Of a stretch of DNA of 64,000 nt, positions 16,887 through 33,661 are shown in pieces. The stretch comes from Methanoregula sp. PtaB.Bin085. Its GTDB lineage: Archaea > Halobacteriota > Methanomicrobia > Methanomicrobiales > Methanospirillaceae. Numbering within the stretch: the stretch's first letter is position 1; the number at the start of each line of letters is the position of its first letter. The DNA is taken from positions 1 through 64,000 of the forward strand of contig NZ_MVQB01000043.1 of the NCBI RefSeq assembly GCF_002067035.1, given 5' to 3'. Made by a program: the position numbers and the translations under genes. The notes under the pieces are model-generated. The model worked only from the letters and a program-made list of their open reading frames with translations, made no database searches and had not been told where the DNA came from.

Positions 16887-18287
16887 TCATGCAAACGAGA
16901 ACGTTTCCGGAACCAGCGTCTGCAAATCCACCGCAACCGCGAGCGCCGGTGTCGGGTTCACATTCATCTGCTTCTGGAACTTGGTCTGGGACTGCCACGT
17001 GCCGGCATTGATCCCGAGCACGCCGCGGTACTGGGTGATGCCCTTGATGTGGACGTGGCCGGTGTGCAGGATCTCGGGCAGCGGGTCGATGATGAGCCGG
17101 TCGGTCCGGCCCGCCGCGATCGGCGTACGGCGGCCGTAGGCCGGCGCGAGGTGCCTGCGGATGAGCATCTCCTCCATCATGAGGCCGGAATGCTCGTACG
17201 AGGCGCCGGGGATGAGCCCGATCATGTCATCGATGGACCTGCCGTGGTACATCAGCACCCGCACACCCTGAAGCCGCACGAGCGCCGGGTTCTCCACGAG
17301 AACGCAGTTGTCCGGGAACTTCTTTGTGAACTGCTCCGGGAGCACCGGCTGGGGCTCGGCCCCGCGGACAACGTCGTGGTTGCCGGGCGAGATGATGATC
17401 TTCATGCGGGAGGGCAGGTCCTTCATCATGGCACCGAAAGCGTCGTACTGTTCATAAATATTCTTTATCCGGAGCTCGGCATCCTGCCCGGGGTAGATGC
17501 CGATCCCGTCCACGAGGTCGCCTGCGATCAGGAGGTAGGAGTAGTCGGAATCGGAGAGCCAGTCAGCGAATTTGTTCCAGCTCCCCTCGAGGAACGTGTC
17601 GCTGCCAACGTGGGTGTCGGAGATGAAGACGGCTTTCCCGGGATCAGTGCTCCTGAACGGGGCGTTGTCGATCCGGATATCGGGGCGGTACAGGAGCTCG
17701 GCAAAGAAGAGCTTGCCGTCCATGGAGAGCTTGCCTTTGACCCCAATCACTTCGTCGTGGATGATCCTCTCGGCATCGGAAAAGACCGGCCGGTCCTTGC
17801 GGAAGAGCACCGTGATGGTGCCGGTCGCGTCCTCGATCTCGGCGATGCGGTGGCCGTTCGTGGTCGTCTTCACGTCAACGACCATCCCGATGACCGTGCA
17901 CTCCTCCTGCCGGTAGCGGGTGCTCTTTGACAGCCCCTCGATGGGCATGGCGCCGACCCGGCCCCGGATCATCCCGCCGAGCTTCGCATACCGGTGGCGG
18001 AAGTAGTGGAGGTAGTCCTCCGTGCCGTTGACAGCCCCGGATGTGCCGGCGGAGCCGGTCACGACCTCGACTGCGGGGTCCACGTGGAACCGCATGCCGT
18101 CCCGGACCGGCTTCACCCCGGGGATGTGCTTTGCGGAGACCACGATGGCGTCCTGCGGGACAGTGGCGATGATGCGGTCGATCATCGCATCCGGCTCGTC
18201 CTGCTCCAGGATGTGGCGCACGACCTCCGGGTGCACCTGGAGCTTTTTGTCGAGGAAGCGGTGAGCGATCTCCTGCGCATCAAGCAT
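16887..18287 (-). CDS. polB: DNA polymerase D small subunit (DP1, exonuclease)
   Basis: 466 residues from the ATG at 18287. The open frame runs another 152 codons upstream, but that part overlaps the opposite-strand lipoprotein gene and has no family character. DP1 is the proofreading 3'-5' exonuclease subunit of the archaeal replicative polymerase D. An OB-fold region (about 120-215, TVIGMVVDVKTTTNGHRIAE) precedes the calcineurin-like phosphoesterase core, whose metal motifs are all intact: DTHVGSD (about 224), AGDLVDG (about 257), SPGNHD (about 301) and HTGHVH (about 411). The large subunit DP2 is not in the window. Confidence 0.94.
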   Translation of the reverse strand: MLDAQEIAHRFLDKKLQVHPEVVRHILEQDEPDAMIDRIIATVPQDAIVVSAKHIPGVKPVRDGMRFHVDPAVEVVTGSAGTSGAVNGTEDYLHYFRHRYAKLGGMIRGRVGAMPIEGLSKSTRYRQEECTVIGMVVDVKTTTNGHRIAEIEDATGTITVLFRKDRPVFSDAERIIHDEVIGVKGKLSMDGKLFFAELLYRPDIRIDNAPFRSTDPGKAVFISDTHVGSDTFLEGSWNKFADWLSDSDYSYLLIAGDLVDGIGIYPGQDAELRIKNIYEQYDAFGAMMKDLPSRMKIIISPGNHDVVRGAEPQPVLPEQFTKKFPDNCVLVENPALVRLQGVRVLMYHGRSIDDMIGLIPGASYEHSGLMMEEMLIRRHLAPAYGRRTPIAAGRTDRLIIDPLPEILHTGHVHIKGITQYRGVLGINAGTWQSQTKFQKQMNVNPTPALAVAVDLQTLVPETFSFA

Positions 18288-18389
18288 ACCGGATTTTTGG
18301 CGCCGGAAGTAGATAGAGATGGTTGTTACGGCACCGGCAACGTGAGAGTACCGCGGCAGGCGATCGTTTCCTACAACCTTAATAATTTG

Positions 18390-18980
18390 ATGACCCAGAC
18401 CGGAATAAGCAAAAAAACCCGGCCTGCTCCTGTGCTGCGCCGCACTCGCAACCCTCGCCATCGTCTCGGCCTGCACAACACAGACAGCAGGAACCGATCT
18501 GGGAAACGGTTTTAAGGAATACAGGGATGTCCCGATGGGCATCAGTTTCGAGTATCCCGCCAGCTGGCATATGGAACGGGCAGCTTCCGCAGAATATGCA
18601 AGAACCGTGCAATACACCTTCATCCGTCCCGGCGGGAATTTCACGGCTGCGTTCCAGAGCGGCGACAACGCCGCCCTGAAACATTCCCCGGCAACCCTTG
18701 AAGCGTGGCGGGACCAGTATCTGGAGATGCTTCCCAACGCCACCTACCGCACGGACTACAGACTCGTGGCAAGCGAGCCTGCCACTCTGTCGGGATCGCC
18801 GGCCTGGCGGATCGAGTACACCGCCCTGATGAAGAACGGCCCCCGCATGCGGGGGGAGGTTTTCCTGATGATGAACGGGACGCGGGGCGCCATGATTGCG
18901 CTTGTCGGCAACGATGATGCCGACGGTGCCCTTTCCGACGGCCCGCGCATTTCGTCAGGTCAATCGAAATCGCGGGATAA
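18390..18980 (+). pseudogene. Lipoprotein gene with two compensating homopolymer frameshifts
   Basis: From ATG 18390 the frame reads MTQTGISKK and then meets A7 (18411-18417). Skipping one A continues as PGLLLCCAALATLAIVSAC, a textbook lipoprotein signal with lipobox Cys, and then about 150 residues of an envelope domain (ISFEYPASWHMERA to AMIALVGNDDADGALSDGP). At the CCC run (18942-18944) one extra C would restore the natural ending AHFVRSIEIAG and a TAA at 18978-18980. As written the gene is split into three frames. It is either a decayed gene, a phase-variable or slippery gene, or a product of assembly errors. Divergent from polB across about 100 bp. Confidence 0.7.
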
Positions 18981-19123
18981 TACCGGCCGGAACGGCCTTT
19001 TTTTGGAAGAATCTTCTTTCCCCAAAAATACTCGAAAAACACCCGGCCCGCATCTTCCGCAGCGGCAGATTCCCGTGCCATTCCAATAACGGCAAAAGTA
19101 TTCATATTTACAATGCTTACACT

Positions 19124-19330
19124 ATGATCATGCCCGCGGTAAAACGGATACCGGTGACAGAACCGGTCTGGAAGGATCTTGCCGAGATGCGGTCAGCCGG
19201 CCAGACCTACACGGATCTTCTGGAGGAGATGATTCAGGATCGGAAGATGCGCCGGCTCGAGGAAGACGCGAGGTCCTGGCGCAGCCGCAGAAAGAGGGAT
19301 TATGTTTCCCTTGCGGAGATTAAGGATTGA
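19124..19330 (+). CDS. Antitoxin of a RelE-type toxin-antitoxin pair
   Basis: 68 residues, starting ATG 19124 (or the in-frame ATG 19130). The protein has the pattern of short archaeal antitoxins that precede RelE/ParE toxins: an N-terminal strand VKRIPVTEPVWKDLAEM, then a helix TYTDLLEEMIQDRKMRRLEED and a charged, basic tail. A TATA-like TTCATATTTA about 20-25 bases upstream suggests a nearly leaderless transcript. Its stop overlaps the toxin start by 4 bases (TTGA), so the two are translationally coupled. It would bind both the toxin and its own promoter. Confidence 0.75.
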   Translation: MIMPAVKRIPVTEPVWKDLAEMRSAGQTYTDLLEEMIQDRKMRRLEEDARSWRSRRKRDYVSLAEIKD

Positions 19331-19617
19331 CCTATTCCCTCATCCTCTGGCATGAACTGGCAGACGAGATCAACAGCCTGCCTGATAAATCACGCCGGAT
19401 TATCAAAACTGCCCTGAAACGGCTCGAGGAAGATCCGTTCCCGGGAAAAGAGGGCGATAAGGAAAAACTGGTCCTGCGGGGCGGGATAATTATTTACCGG
19501 CTTCATATCTCCCGCAGGTATACCGTCTTATATGAGATCGATAAAGAGGAAAAACTGGTGATTGTCCAGGAGATCCTCCCGATAGAACAGGCTCACAAGA
19601 AATACGGGTATTACTGA
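19327..19617 (+). CDS. RelE/ParE-family toxin
   Basis: 96 residues from a TTG start that overlaps the antitoxin stop. The sequence follows the RelE fold: N-terminal helix pair (LADEINSLPDKSRRIIKTALKRLEEDPFPG), central strands with LVLRGGIIIYRLHISRRYTVLYEI, and a final strand LVIVQEILPI ending AHKKYGYY. RelE toxins cleave mRNA in the ribosome; ParE relatives block gyrase. The basic/aromatic end (Arg, Tyr, Lys-Lys-Tyr) fits an RNase-type RelE but does not prove it. The pair is self-contained, with no other mobile gene beside it. Confidence 0.82.
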   Translation: MTYSLILWHELADEINSLPDKSRRIIKTALKRLEEDPFPGKEGDKEKLVLRGGIIIYRLHISRRYTVLYEIDKEEKLVIVQEILPIEQAHKKYGYY

Positions 19618-19661
19618 TTACCCGTACCCGTCGTTTTTTCAGAACATAAAAAAATTTTCTG

Positions 19662-20687
19662 TTATTGTCGCCTCCGCATCCAGAGCACGGCGCCGATCGC
19701 GATAATCCCGAACACTGCCGCAAAGCCCGGCGACTTCTTTGCCGCAGCAAGCCCGGTGTTGTACTTCGTTGTCTCGCCCGCGGTGATCGAGACCGGCGTG
19801 GAGAGATCGGCGTACCCGTCCAGTTTCAGAAGGAGCGTGTGATCGCCCGGTGCGAGCCCGGGGATGTCTGCCGGGGAGACACCCCGCTGGACGCCGTCGA
19901 TGAAGATTGAGGCGCCGGCCGGGGTCGTGGTGACCGAGAGGGTGCCGGTGGCTCCGGGTGCGATACTGCCTGCCGCTGCTGAACCGGACTGCTGGGAACC
20001 GGATCCCGATCCGGACTGAGATGAGCCTGTCTGCTGGTTATCTGAAGAGGAGCCGCCCTGCTGGCTGCCGGAGGAGGATACGGTTTGCGATGACCCTGAC
20101 TGCGAAGAACCGGCGAGCGCTGCTGCCGCTGCACCTAGGTTCTGCGATCCCGATGCACCGACCTTCGACCCGCTGCCCTGTGCTGCCGTTGTGGTCGTGA
20201 CTTTCGCAACAATCGTGGGCTTGTCAAGTTTCGGCATCGTCGTGGTCTTCGCTGCTGCGAAATTCACTGCGCCCGGTTTGATCGCGACGGGCGTTGTCGT
20301 TGGAGGGGCAGCCGATGAGGGCGTCAGATAAACGTATACATACGAATACTTGCGATCGCAGACCGTCGTGGCGATCAGAAGACGTTCATATCCCGGCCTG
20401 GTATATTTCAGGATATAAGAGCCGGGACCAAGCGAGACATGATATGCCGGGATATCACCGTACGGTGCGGGTAAATACTTATAATCTGCCGGAAGGAGTG
20501 TTGTATCCCCCCAGTATATCTTCACGTCTTCTGAATACGGCAGATCGGAAAGGAAATAAACATCCCCGCTGGCCCAGTTGGAGAGCGCGGGATTGTCCTC
20601 TACGCAGGACCCTTCCGGCGGTGCTGCATGTGCCCACCCGCTACAGAGTGCCGCGAGCAGGAGAAAAAGGAGAACAGGGTATTTCAT
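19662..20687 (-). CDS. PEGA-domain surface protein with PGF-CTERM-like tail (copy 1)
   Basis: 341 residues. Signal peptide 1-21 (MKYPVLLFLLLAALCSGWAH), then an N-terminal domain of about 110 residues with paired Cys (SCVEDNPA, TTVCDRKYSYVYVYLTP). A long Ser/Gln/Gly/Thr-rich linker follows (about 130-250), then one PEGA domain (about 253-315: TLSVTTTPAGASIFIDGVQ, PGLAPGDHTLLLKLDGY). The tail KKSPGFAAVFGIIAIGAVLW plus MRRRQ has the PGF tripeptide, hydrophobic helix and Arg cluster of archaeosortase (ArtA) substrates, which are cut and linked to a lipid. Its leader region and both ends are shared with the next two genes, so the three arose by tandem duplication. Confidence 0.82.
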   Translation of the reverse strand: MKYPVLLFLLLAALCSGWAHAAPPEGSCVEDNPALSNWASGDVYFLSDLPYSEDVKIYWGDTTLLPADYKYLPAPYGDIPAYHVSLGPGSYILKYTRPGYERLLIATTVCDRKYSYVYVYLTPSSAAPPTTTPVAIKPGAVNFAAAKTTTMPKLDKPTIVAKVTTTTAAQGSGSKVGASGSQNLGAAAAALAGSSQSGSSQTVSSSGSQQGGSSSDNQQTGSSQSGSGSGSQQSGSAAAGSIAPGATGTLSVTTTPAGASIFIDGVQRGVSPADIPGLAPGDHTLLLKLDGYADLSTPVSITAGETTKYNTGLAAAKKSPGFAAVFGIIAIGAVLWMRRRQ

Positions 20688-20848
20688 ATCCGGTCTGTTG
20701 TATGAAGGGGTTAATTACCGTTCCGATTTTAATCCTGCTTCCCGAATAATCCCGGATAACGTCGTAATTGAATCGTCGGGCCCGGAAATGGGCGGATTGC
20801 CGGTACAGGAGGTGAATCGGGCGATGAGATAGCCGGCAGGGAAATACG

Positions 20849-21880
20849 TTATTGGGATCGCATCTCCCGCAGGCAGAGGACCGCACCCAGTGAGGCGAGT
20901 GCCGCGATGAACGCAAAGCCCGGCGACTTCTTTGTGGCAACAGGAGTCCCGGATACCGGGACAAGACCGGAGCTGAATGGCTGGGTCTGGCCGGCGATGA
21001 TCGTTATCGTGGTGGTGAGGTCCTTGTACCCGTCCATCTTCAGGAGAAGGGTATGGTCCCCGGGTGCAAGTCCCGAGATGGTCGCGGGGGTGACGCCCCG
21101 CTGGGCCCCGTCGATGAAGACATAGGCGCCGGCCGGAGTCGTGGTGACCGAGAGGATGCCGGTTGCAGCGGGTGCAATATTCCCGGCAGTTCCGGAGCCG
21201 GCCTGCTGCGATCCTGAGCCGGAGCCGGCCTGCGAACTTACGGAGGTAGACCCGGTCTGGCCGGAACCCGTGGAACCGGTGCCGGTGCCCTGCGATCCCG
21301 TTCCTCCGGTCTGCGACCCGCTGCCCTGCGATACCGAAGCGGTCGTGGTCTTCGGAGCAAGAGTAGCGACATCGATCGTACCAGCAACATTGACGGCATA
21401 TTTGGGCGTCGTGGTCACCGGTGCGGTGGTGGCCGCGGTAATGACTGAATAGCCGGATACTGCCGGTTTGACGGCATACCCGCTCTTTGCCGTTGTCACC
21501 GTTGTCGTGACGGCAGGTACCATGACGACATTGACAAAGGAATACTTGCAGTCGCAGACTTCGGTTGAGAACGCGGCATCGTTATAACCGGGTCTCCTGA
21601 CGGTGATCGTGTAGGTCCCGGGAGAAAACCCGAGCTCGTATCCCGTGTAAATTGAATACGGATCAGGAAGGGACCGTATCGTGGGATGCAGCTGCTCGGT
21701 CCCGCGCAGGAATATCACGTCATCGGACACGGGGAGGTTGAGATACACCATAACCCGCCCGTTGGGCATGTTGCCACAGCTGCCGATATATGATTGTGCG
21801 CAGGACTGTGTTGGCGGTGCAGCACAGACACAGGCGATACAGAAGAACAGTACGAGGAGAAATGCTGTTCCGTATTTCAT
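20849..21880 (-). CDS. PEGA-domain surface protein with PGF-CTERM-like tail (copy 2)
   Basis: 343 residues from the ATG at 21880; the frame extends 75 codons upstream, but MKYGTAFLLVLFFCIACVCA is a clear signal peptide matching copy 1. The layout is as in copy 1: N-terminal domain with CAQSYIGSCGN and VCDCKYSFVNVV, a Thr/Val then Gly/Ser/Gln-rich linker (about 130-250), one PEGA domain (ILSVTTTPAGAYVFIDGAQ, GDHTLLLKMDGY) and the tail KKSPGFAFIAALASLGAVLC followed by LREMRSQ. The 160-bp regions upstream of copies 1 and 2 share several blocks (the CATATCCGG-CTGTTGTATG region, ACCGTTCC and GAATAATCCCGGAT), so the promoter was duplicated with the gene. Confidence 0.82.
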   Translation of the reverse strand: MKYGTAFLLVLFFCIACVCAAPPTQSCAQSYIGSCGNMPNGRVMVYLNLPVSDDVIFLRGTEQLHPTIRSLPDPYSIYTGYELGFSPGTYTITVRRPGYNDAAFSTEVCDCKYSFVNVVMVPAVTTTVTTAKSGYAVKPAVSGYSVITAATTAPVTTTPKYAVNVAGTIDVATLAPKTTTASVSQGSGSQTGGTGSQGTGTGSTGSGQTGSTSVSSQAGSGSGSQQAGSGTAGNIAPAATGILSVTTTPAGAYVFIDGAQRGVTPATISGLAPGDHTLLLKMDGYKDLTTTITIIAGQTQPFSSGLVPVSGTPVATKKSPGFAFIAALASLGAVLCLREMRSQ

Positions 21881-22040
21881 ATCCGGACTGTTGTATGCAT
21901 CGTTTAATACCGTTCCGTTTTTAATCCGGCCTCTGGAATAATCCCGGATGGCGTCCGAATTCTGCCGTAGCGGATAACGAAAGGCCGGATTGCCGGCACA
22001 TGAAAAATGACGGGCAGGGGAAAAACCGAAAAAACGGGGA

Positions 22041-22967
22041 TTATGATCGTATCTTCCGCAGGCAGAGGACCGCACCCAGACCCGCGAGCGCTGCAATGAA
22101 CGCAAAGCCCGGCGACTTCTTCGGCGTTACTGTTGTTTCCGGGGTCGCTGCCGCTGCTGTTGTAGCCTCAGTTGTTGCCGCCACCTTCGCCATGGCTGAT
22201 GAGTATTCCTGCGTCTTGCCGGCTGAGATCGTGACCGGCGTGCTGATGTCCTGGTACCCGTCAAGTTTCAACAGCAGCGTGTGGGTGCCGGCTGTAATCC
22301 CGGGGATCGTGGCCGGCGTGACGCCCCGCTGGACGCCGTCGATGAAGATGAACGCACCGGCTGGCTCTGTCTTCACGGAAAGGGAGCCGAGCGTGTCAGG
22401 CTGGGCCGTTGCGAAAGTCTGCTGTCCTGCTGGTACGGCCGGTACTGCAGATGATCCTCCGGAGGACGGGACTGTTGTCGTCGGCAGGGGGACGTTGCCG
22501 AATGCCCCACCGGACTTCGAACTCCCGCCGGAACTGGCTGCAGCGGTTGTGATTGTCGTGGTTACCTTGACAGCGCCGGTATTGATCCCTGTCTTGCCGA
22601 GGGATACGCTCTTCGTCGGACTAAAGTCTGCATTCGTCACTTTCCCGGCGCATACCTGTATCGTATCGCTGATTTCGCTATATCCTGTCGCCGTGAGTCT
22701 CAGCGAATGATATCCCGCCGGTATCTGCCCCACGTATTCGCGTTCCGAATCATCGTAAATGACCTCCGTCAGCGATGCCGGATATACTCCGTCAATGGTA
22801 ATATCGCCACCAGAATGGCTGAAACCCGCGCTGTTGTGGAGCTGGATTCGGACATGCCCGTTATTCTGGGTACACCAGGAACAGGCCTCGGTCCCGCATG
22901 CAATGCTGGCTGTTGCGGGAGCGATACAGAAGAGAAGGACAAGGATAAGCGACAGGGAGAATCTCAT
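22041..22967 (-). CDS. PEGA-domain surface protein with PGF-CTERM-like tail (copy 3)
   Basis: 308 residues. Signal peptide MRFSLSLILVLLFCIAPATAS, then an N-terminal domain with CGTEACSWC and a different, PEGA-like fold (NGHVRIQLHNSAGFSHSGGD, QIPAGYHSLRLTATGYSEIS). The linker is shorter and lacks the Ser/Gln repeats of copies 1 and 2. The second, canonical PEGA domain (about 195-265, SLSVKTEPAGAFIFIDGVQ) is followed by an Ala/Thr-rich stalk and the tail KKSPGFAFIAALAGLGAVLC with LRKIRS. It therefore seems to carry two PEGA-type modules. The last 69 bases of coding tail recur almost unchanged at 23121-23189. Confidence 0.82.
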   Translation of the reverse strand: MRFSLSLILVLLFCIAPATASIACGTEACSWCTQNNGHVRIQLHNSAGFSHSGGDITIDGVYPASLTEVIYDDSEREYVGQIPAGYHSLRLTATGYSEISDTIQVCAGKVTNADFSPTKSVSLGKTGINTGAVKVTTTITTAAASSGGSSKSGGAFGNVPLPTTTVPSSGGSSAVPAVPAGQQTFATAQPDTLGSLSVKTEPAGAFIFIDGVQRGVTPATIPGITAGTHTLLLKLDGYQDISTPVTISAGKTQEYSSAMAKVAATTEATTAAAATPETTVTPKKSPGFAFIAALAGLGAVLCLRKIRS

Positions 22968-23105
22968 ACAGGTACGGTAAAATCTGATGGGTAATTATTC
23001 TTATGCTCGTATCCGACCGTCTTGATGACGACGGTACGAGACGTCGTTCACGACGGAAAATCAGTCCGGAACCATTGGCCGGGCTGCCAGGAGCGGCCGG
23101 AAAAA

Positions 23106-23213
23106 TTATCCGGCCAGTCCCTTCCGCAGGCAGAGGACTGCACCCAGACCCGCGAGCGCTGCAATGAACGCAAAGCCCGGCGACTTCTTTGTGACTGAAG
23201 GTGCCGCAGTTGC
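23106..23213 (-). pseudogene. Orphan C-terminal tail of a fourth PEGA/PGF-CTERM gene
   Basis: Read on the minus strand, this stretch encodes LATAAPSVTKKSPGFAFIAA, LAGLGAVLCLRKGLAG and a stop, which is the complete PGF-CTERM-like tail without any protein before it; an in-frame TAG closes the frame just upstream. Bases 23121-23189 match the tail of copy 3 (22053-22121) at 68 of 69 positions. It is the remnant of a fourth tandem copy or a recent tail duplication. Confidence 0.75.
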
Positions 23214-23273
23214 CAGTAGGAAAAAAGGCTATCCCACCGGATCATCCGCGGGCAAAGGTGCCTGCCCGGTCTA

Positions 23274-23393
23274 TTTATCCCCATTGACCCCCCTTTCGCA
23301 TGCTCCCGGTAAAAACCTGCATTTTCCGGAGTAAAATGGACCGGAATTAACCATGAAAGCGGGCATGCCACAAGGGGGGTCATTGGGGATAAA
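23274..23393. repeat. 120-bp imperfect palindrome with 30-bp arms
   Basis: The left arm 23274-23303 begins TTTATCCCCATTGACCCCCC and ends GCATGC. The right arm 23363-23393 is its near-perfect reverse complement. A third, single copy (TTATCCCCACTGACCCCCC, ATGC) lies at 23481-23503. The block fills the spacer between the PEGA cluster and the LysE gene. No coding sequence is seen in it. It may be a small transposable element or a regulatory site. Confidence 0.6.
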
Positions 23394-23531
23394 TTTCCGG
23401 CAGCCGTTCCGGATTCCTTAAATTCAACAGGTATTTACGCCGTAATAAAACCTCGGCTCTCCGGCCGGCAGGATCCGGAATTATCCCCACTGACCCCCCA
23501 TGCGTGGCTGCACGGGTCATGCTGGCCCGGC

Positions 23532-24200
23532 ATGTTTCAATACCGAACGGGACAAGAAAGTACATACGGAGCCACTCTGTTGCTGACCGAAATCCTCTCC
23601 ACCCTCGCCCTCGGCCTCCTCATCGGCTTCACCGGAGCCCTCGCCCCGGGGCCAACGCTCGTCGCCACCATCAACGCATCGCTGAAAGGCGACTGGACGG
23701 CGGGGCTGCGGGTCTCGCTCGGCCACATCGTGATCGAGACCGCGATCTTCTTTCTGATCGTCCTCGGCCTCGCCGCGGTTGCGCGGCCGTACACGACCAT
23801 CATCGCGATAGTCGGCGGTATTGCGCTGATCGTCTTCGGGATCATGACGATCACCGGCAGCCGGAGCGCTACACTCTCGCTGGCATCGCAGCATGAGAGC
23901 GCCGGCCCGGTCATGGCCGGCCTCCTCACCAGTGCCGCGAACCCCTACTTCTGGCTCTGGTGGCTTTCCGTGGGGAGCGCCCTTTTGATCAATGCACTCT
24001 CGGGCGGCCTCCTGCTTGCGATTGTTTTCATGATCGGCCACTGGGGGGCTGATGTCAGCTGGTACACCTTCGTCTCCACCGGCATTGCGAAGGGAAAAGC
24101 GATCCTTGCCGACACTGCCTACCGCATGATCATGGGCGCCTGCGGCATCTTCCTTGTGCTCTTCGGGATTTACTACCTTGCCGGCCCGTTCCTGCCGTGA
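23532..24200 (+). CDS. LysE/RhtB-family amino-acid exporter
   Basis: 222 residues from ATG 23532; a TTG at 23580, which trims 16 residues, is the more conserved-looking start (LTEILSTLALGLLIGFTGAL). Six membrane helices. The family signature is visible in GFTGALAPGPTLVATINASL at the N-terminus, SAANPYFWLWWLSVGSALL in the middle and the MIMGACGIFLVLFGIYYL end. LysE/RhtB proteins export basic or hydrophobic amino acids or related metabolites in exchange for protons. The substrate is not readable. Downstream lies the signal peptidase on the same strand. Confidence 0.82.
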   Translation: MFQYRTGQESTYGATLLLTEILSTLALGLLIGFTGALAPGPTLVATINASLKGDWTAGLRVSLGHIVIETAIFFLIVLGLAAVARPYTTIIAIVGGIALIVFGIMTITGSRSATLSLASQHESAGPVMAGLLTSAANPYFWLWWLSVGSALLINALSGGLLLAIVFMIGHWGADVSWYTFVSTGIAKGKAILADTAYRMIMGACGIFLVLFGIYYLAGPFLP

Positions 24201-33424: not shown

Positions 33425-33661
33425 CGGCTCTGTAGAAATCCTTTTCATAACGCACTCAGTGGAATTGCGAGGGTGACCCCCTCTCTCCCCCAGAGGGGGA
33501 GGCAGCCCAAGGGGGCAAGCCCCCTTGACCCCCAATTCCGATCTTTTTTATGAATGCTCCAATACGGCGATGCTCCACGGGGCGAGGGTCGACAGACCCC
33601 GAGCGCCCGTGGCTCCATCGCAATACAATCCAAGATTTCTGTTAGCTTTTCTACAGAGCCG
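33425..33661. mobile_element. 237-bp MITE with 14-bp terminal inverted repeats
   Basis: The ends CGGCTCTGTAGAAA (33425-33438) and TTTCTACAGAGCCG (33648-33661) are perfect inverted repeats. They are flanked by direct AAATTA copies (33419-33424 and 33662-33667), a probable target-site duplication. The inside holds no transposase. It contains two strong GC hairpins in a segment bounded by GGAATTG (33461) and CAATTCC (33539), and a 46-bp palindromic repeat also present at 61.8 kb. The terminal sequence resembles those of insertion sequences that start GGCTCTGT, so a full-length parent element elsewhere in the genome is expected to mobilise it. Confidence 0.78.
33571..33616. repeat. 46-bp palindromic repeat, copy inside the MITE
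   Basis: Begins TGCTCCACGGGGCGAGGGTC and ends with CCCGTGGCTCC. CCACGGG and GGGTC on the left pair with GACCC and CCCGTGG on the right to form a strong hairpin. The copy at 61792-61837 differs at 3 of 46 positions. Confidence 0.7.

Follow-up and report, generated by a model that had tools for sequence, protein, structure and literature searches.

Proteins bearing the PEGA domain (PF08308) have been described among the surface proteins of Methanosarcina acetivorans (PMC2447325), and an S-layer protein of Methanospirillum hungatei that has a PGF-CTERM domain is presumed to be anchored in the membrane (PMC11641113). Known surface-variation systems, as exemplified by Anaplasma, combine a single expression site with promoterless copies bearing variant domains, and the same source outlines concerted evolution by short-tract gene conversion (PMC11276520). 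In the window, i.e. the whole stretch of 64,000 nucleotides analyzed here, we found three tandem genes that share features with each of these systems. Like the methanogen PEGA proteins, their products are predicted to be secreted, carry PEGA and belong to a large paralogous family, with 56 PEGA matches in this genome; unlike them, they have an N-terminal domain which appears to be a divergent PEGA-type sandwich, scoring below or near the Pfam cut-off. The locus is quite probably an ordinary tandem array of PEGA surface-protein genes, situated in a lineage-specific insert of about 5.2 kb and made up of old paralogues, in which a fourth gene has been lost and the tails have undergone conversion or crossing-over.

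The three genes lie on the minus strand at 19662-20687 (gene 1), 20849-21880 (gene 2) and 22041-22967 (gene 3), and all are complete, each with its own start. Every one of them consists of a Sec-type signal peptide, an N-terminal sandwich domain of ~90 residues, a low-complexity linker (rich in Ser, Gly and Gln in gene 1), one PEGA domain and a PGF-type tail with the motif KKSPGF (19662-19739, 20849-20932 and 22041-22121, respectively). With Pfam scores of 65.4, 73.4 and 78.4 bits, all above the gathering cut-off of 20.8, the products are PEGA-domain proteins, and the initial annotation, which had proposed tandem genes with signal peptides and PEGA, was right on this point. It had also proposed duplicated promoter blocks, which holds for two of the genes: the regions upstream of gene 1 (20688-20810, minus strand) and gene 2 (21881-22003, minus strand) are homologous, with a local alignment score of 95 where shuffled sequences reached at most 22, but gene 3 has a distinct upstream region of its own from which the block is absent (local score 14-16, i.e. 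at shuffle level). Genes 1 and 2 would then have arisen when a unit including the upstream region was duplicated.

The N-terminal domains had been described as strongly different, and their identity is indeed low, but those of genes 1 and 2 are homologous (37% identity, E 2e-18) and the group of three aligned with PEGA in a profile comparison (probability 83%, E 9e-6, 38 columns). In genes 2 and 3, Pfam furthermore indicated another PEGA stretch, albeit a weak one. The AlphaFold model of gene 2, with a mean pLDDT of 55 (low overall confidence) and ~70-83 in the folded parts, shows two beta-sandwich domains with similar strand order, at residues 41-118 and 241-305, as well as a predicted C-terminal helix at 320-341, and Foldseek matched CnaB and transthyretin-like sandwiches. 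On account of the profile alignment, the weak second PEGA stretch, the strand order and the Foldseek matches, what had been called a variable outer domain can most likely be regarded as a diverged domain of PEGA type and not as an unrelated module that was swapped in. Each protein would thus carry two PEGA-type sandwich domains joined via a flexible linker.

In all three genes KKSPGF is followed by a hydrophobic stretch and then by basic residues (R/K) at the extreme C-terminus. The tails therefore resemble those of PGF-CTERM/archaeosortase proteins, as first claimed, in motif order, hydrophobic stretch and basic end, but differ from them in scoring below the curated cut-offs: the NCBIfam PGF-CTERM model gave 13.7 and 15.1 bits against 24.5, the whole-genome scan gave 14.5-18.4 bits for the three gene tails against the same 24.5, and the Pfam model gave 12.6 bits for gene 3 against 18.8; gene 2 was not listed. 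The C-terminal ~47 residues of gene 3 could be aligned to the end of an S-layer glycoprotein model from methanogens (25.5 bits). A search for archaeosortase, which had been suggested as a check, was positive, as the genome encodes three ArtA (TIGR04125) homologues with 291, 241 and 171 bits (cut-off 75). Genes 1-3 probably encode secreted surface proteins, exported via Sec, whose PGF-type tails would be cut and lipid-anchored by one of the archaeosortases of the cell; since the PGF-CTERM models stay under their cut-offs, this anchoring is predicted rather than proven. Elsewhere in the genome are its two strongest PGF-CTERM tails, equal in score at 32.6 bits (C46:175-255 and C60:208326-208406), which perhaps represent a duplicated S-layer gene where the assembly, which consists of 63 contigs, was broken. 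Both are situated at contig ends, and we did not count them as tails lacking a gene.

The array is carried by a gap between two genes that are usually close neighbors, namely that of DP1, the small exonuclease-like subunit of archaeal DNA polymerase D (16887-18284, minus strand; Pfam DNA_pol_E_B 46.8 bits), on the left, and that of a LysE-type transporter (23580-24200, plus strand, longest start 23532; Pfam LysE 101.4 bits) on the right. DP1 is 85-93% identical in the nearest relatives, 93% being the highest value among the four compared. The distance between the two genes is 102-170 bases in 25 out of the 29 congeners with a LysE gene, and about 5.2 kb here (18284-23580). Among the remaining relatives some gaps are 252 or 423 bases long, one is rearranged (G002, L201), and that of G017 (L200) accommodates a Kup-type transporter together with a gene for a small lipoprotein, as named from their sequences. 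With the flanks adjacent in 25 of 29 relatives, the locus is a lineage-specific insert, and the array is specific to this lineage among the genomes compared. A PsbP-like protein fragment (18535-19089, plus strand; sub-threshold Pfam PsbP_2 match, 22.1 bits) is also found in the insert. Adjoining the array within the insert is, in addition, a toxin-antitoxin-like pair at 19130-19617, formed by a VapB-like antitoxin candidate (19130-19330, plus strand; sub-threshold Pfam VAPB_antitox match, 17.2 bits) and a ParE/RelE-type toxin candidate (19327-19617, plus strand; Pfam ParE_toxin 25.7 bits, cut-off 23). A foreign origin was considered on the basis of composition, with a G+C content of 55-60% versus about 60-63% in the surroundings, and set aside, as the difference is too weak to use.

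The PEGA genes of the array are not syntenic with their best relatives (G021, G006 and G002). Tandem PEGA/PGF genes do occur elsewhere in this genome and in one congener. The second array in the genome itself is found at C19:17785-19981 (L070), where the match to the first member reads through a TAG stop.

Between the array and the LysE gene lies another feature, a three-box element at 23273-23499 (unstranded), in which TTATCCCCANTGACCCCCC occurs at 23275(+), 23374(-) and 23481(+). A signature of GACCCCC, 72-100 bases, GGGGGTC, 100-130 bases and GACCCCC, defined without the half-site, was matched more than 80 times, in 16 out of 39 congeneric genomes, and its reversed control not once. Each box is composed of the constant GACCCCC and a half-site of 9-12 bases, which is usually common to the boxes of an element (mean 8.6/12, versus 5.6/12 between random boxes) and varies between elements and between species. 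The gaps between boxes are mostly ~81 and ~110 bases, with a ACGNCGTAAAA-like motif near mid-gap in many copies. Besides the copy in the window, elements were found at L094-L099, L170-L199 and L202:7723-7961, the last of these (G042) in the same DP1-LysE gap with the PEGA genes absent. In several genomes there are copies that are nearly identical, and closely similar ones recur in two related genomes. Open reading frames beside the elements have every orientation; about half of the elements are clear of any frame in a mechanically made list, and the rest overlap frames that may not be genes. No Rfam family was hit in the window, and at the other element loci the sole hit was a tRNA. In appearance it is either a dispersed REPIN- or MITE-type element or a group of sites bound by protein. 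It is possibly undescribed; a narrow literature search returned no published description of it. Viral contigs yielded 12 pattern matches, which we took as chance hits, the half-sites generally not being shared. Separately, AGCCCCCTTGACCCCC-like sequences were observed at about 3683 in L097, at about 4762 in L099 and at 33518 in the window, the former two within a second G-rich repeat (GGGGGCTTGCCCCCTTGGGCTGCCTCCCCCTCTGGGGGAGAGAGGGGGTCACC) that is distinct from the three-box element. Being genus-wide, with strict spacing and an element-specific half-site, the three-box element is more notable than the array itself.

Upstream of gene 3, a further tail is found at 23106-23189 on the minus strand (KKSPGF...GLAG-stop), in an open frame of ~40 codons that lacks a start codon and is absent from the list of open reading frames. 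The fourth tail without a gene that the initial annotation had reported is thus real, and so is its match to the tail of gene 3: positions 23121-23189 are identical to it at 68 of 69 nucleotides, with the similarity stopping abruptly on both sides, and 22 of 23 codons are the same where 9.0 are expected from codon usage (P about 5e-9). The annotation had also spoken of spare tails available for recombination, but a genome-wide search together with the PGF-CTERM scan found this one only, and none of 38 congeners contained a close DNA match to it. Tail-to-tail spacing along the array is 1193, 1189 and 1068 bases, which places the orphan one unit upstream of the gene 3 tail, where the tail of a fourth gene would be expected. 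It is probably the truncated remnant of such a gene; the array would formerly have comprised at least four genes, the extra one having been reduced to its tail.

The main alternative to a lost fourth gene is that the orphan arose as a direct duplication of the gene 3 tail, as the scar of a tandem duplication or an insertion, and was never part of a gene. Consistent with this is the restriction of the similarity to 69 bases with abrupt ends, but the C-terminal residues and the stop of the orphan are its own, its frame remains open for 12 codons further upstream (FFLLATAAPSVT), where it loosely resembles the sequence that precedes the tail in gene 2, and it sits at the distance of one gene unit. 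We therefore regard direct duplication as unlikely, albeit worth keeping in mind, and prefer the loss of a fourth gene.

The tails of genes 2 and 3 are also alike at the DNA level, with 17 of 21 codons identical (8.2 expected, P 6e-5). At fourfold sites, 13 out of 17 agree between the two genes in the tail versus 18 out of 68 elsewhere (P 4e-4), and outside the tail, in the PEGA and N-terminal parts, these sites are near saturation. Such a contrast at silent sites indicates that the tail similarity is young and local and that the genes are old. In a PEGA tree, gene 3 is placed with genes of other species (G021 and G006) and another copy from its own genome (98/92), apart from genes 1 and 2, although the tree covers 68 columns only and gives genes 1 and 2 no firm position. 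Judging from these comparisons, genes 1-3 are old paralogues with locally homogenized tails, and the recent copying or gene conversion that was initially suggested for the tails is well in line with the silent-site identity. As in concerted evolution via short-tract gene conversion (PMC11276520), one segment has been locally homogenized among paralogues; the difference is that here the tail alone is affected, the rest of genes 2 and 3 having diverged to saturation. We infer that recent short gene conversion or unequal crossing-over, which a single genome does not distinguish and either of which would homogenize the tails, made those of gene 3 and the remnant near-identical and that of gene 2 partly so.

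In a more dynamic interpretation, the locus is an active site of recombination: the 69-base tail repeats around gene 3 would enable loss, duplication and exchange of surface genes at their tails, and the three-box element would help to make the gap a hotspot. We give this only a slim chance. Slimmer still is that of the surface-variation cassette which had been proposed for the locus, i.e. the exchange of N-terminal domains on a shared tail, for which spare tails would serve as partners in recombination. A constant tail, divergent N-termini and recently copied tails would fit, and the 69-base direct repeats on either side of gene 3 could lead to this gene being deleted or duplicated. As in antigenic-variation loci with silent donors (Anaplasma; PMC11276520), there is also a partial copy nearby, truncated and promoterless, together with signs of conversion. 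Unlike in those loci, however, the one promoterless copy that was found consists of the constant tail, the opposite of a silent donor of variants. Nor is there a single expression site as far as the sequence tells, since all three genes are complete with separate starts and their own upstream regions, alike in genes 1 and 2 and different in gene 3. The variable domains show no sign of exchange, as the N-termini of genes 2 and 3 have reached saturation and share no blocks, and congeners carry PEGA genes of this same architecture at unrelated loci. Were it true, a surface-variation system would be important for archaea; the evidence, however, argues against it. Lastly, selection on the amino acids of the sorting signal as the sole cause of the likeness of the tails, which the presence of KKSPGF in all copies might suggest, is hardly credible and is already disfavored by silent sites, where identity far exceeds the codon-usage expectation both between gene 3 and the orphan and between genes 2 and 3, and the orphan, lacking a start codon, should escape selection on protein.

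An ordinary PEGA array with a lost fourth gene and converted or crossed-over tails is thus the interpretation that we retain. It would make the locus a tandem family of archaeosortase type in which the sorting tail is homogenized while the outer parts diverge, a pattern that fits known short-tract gene conversion.
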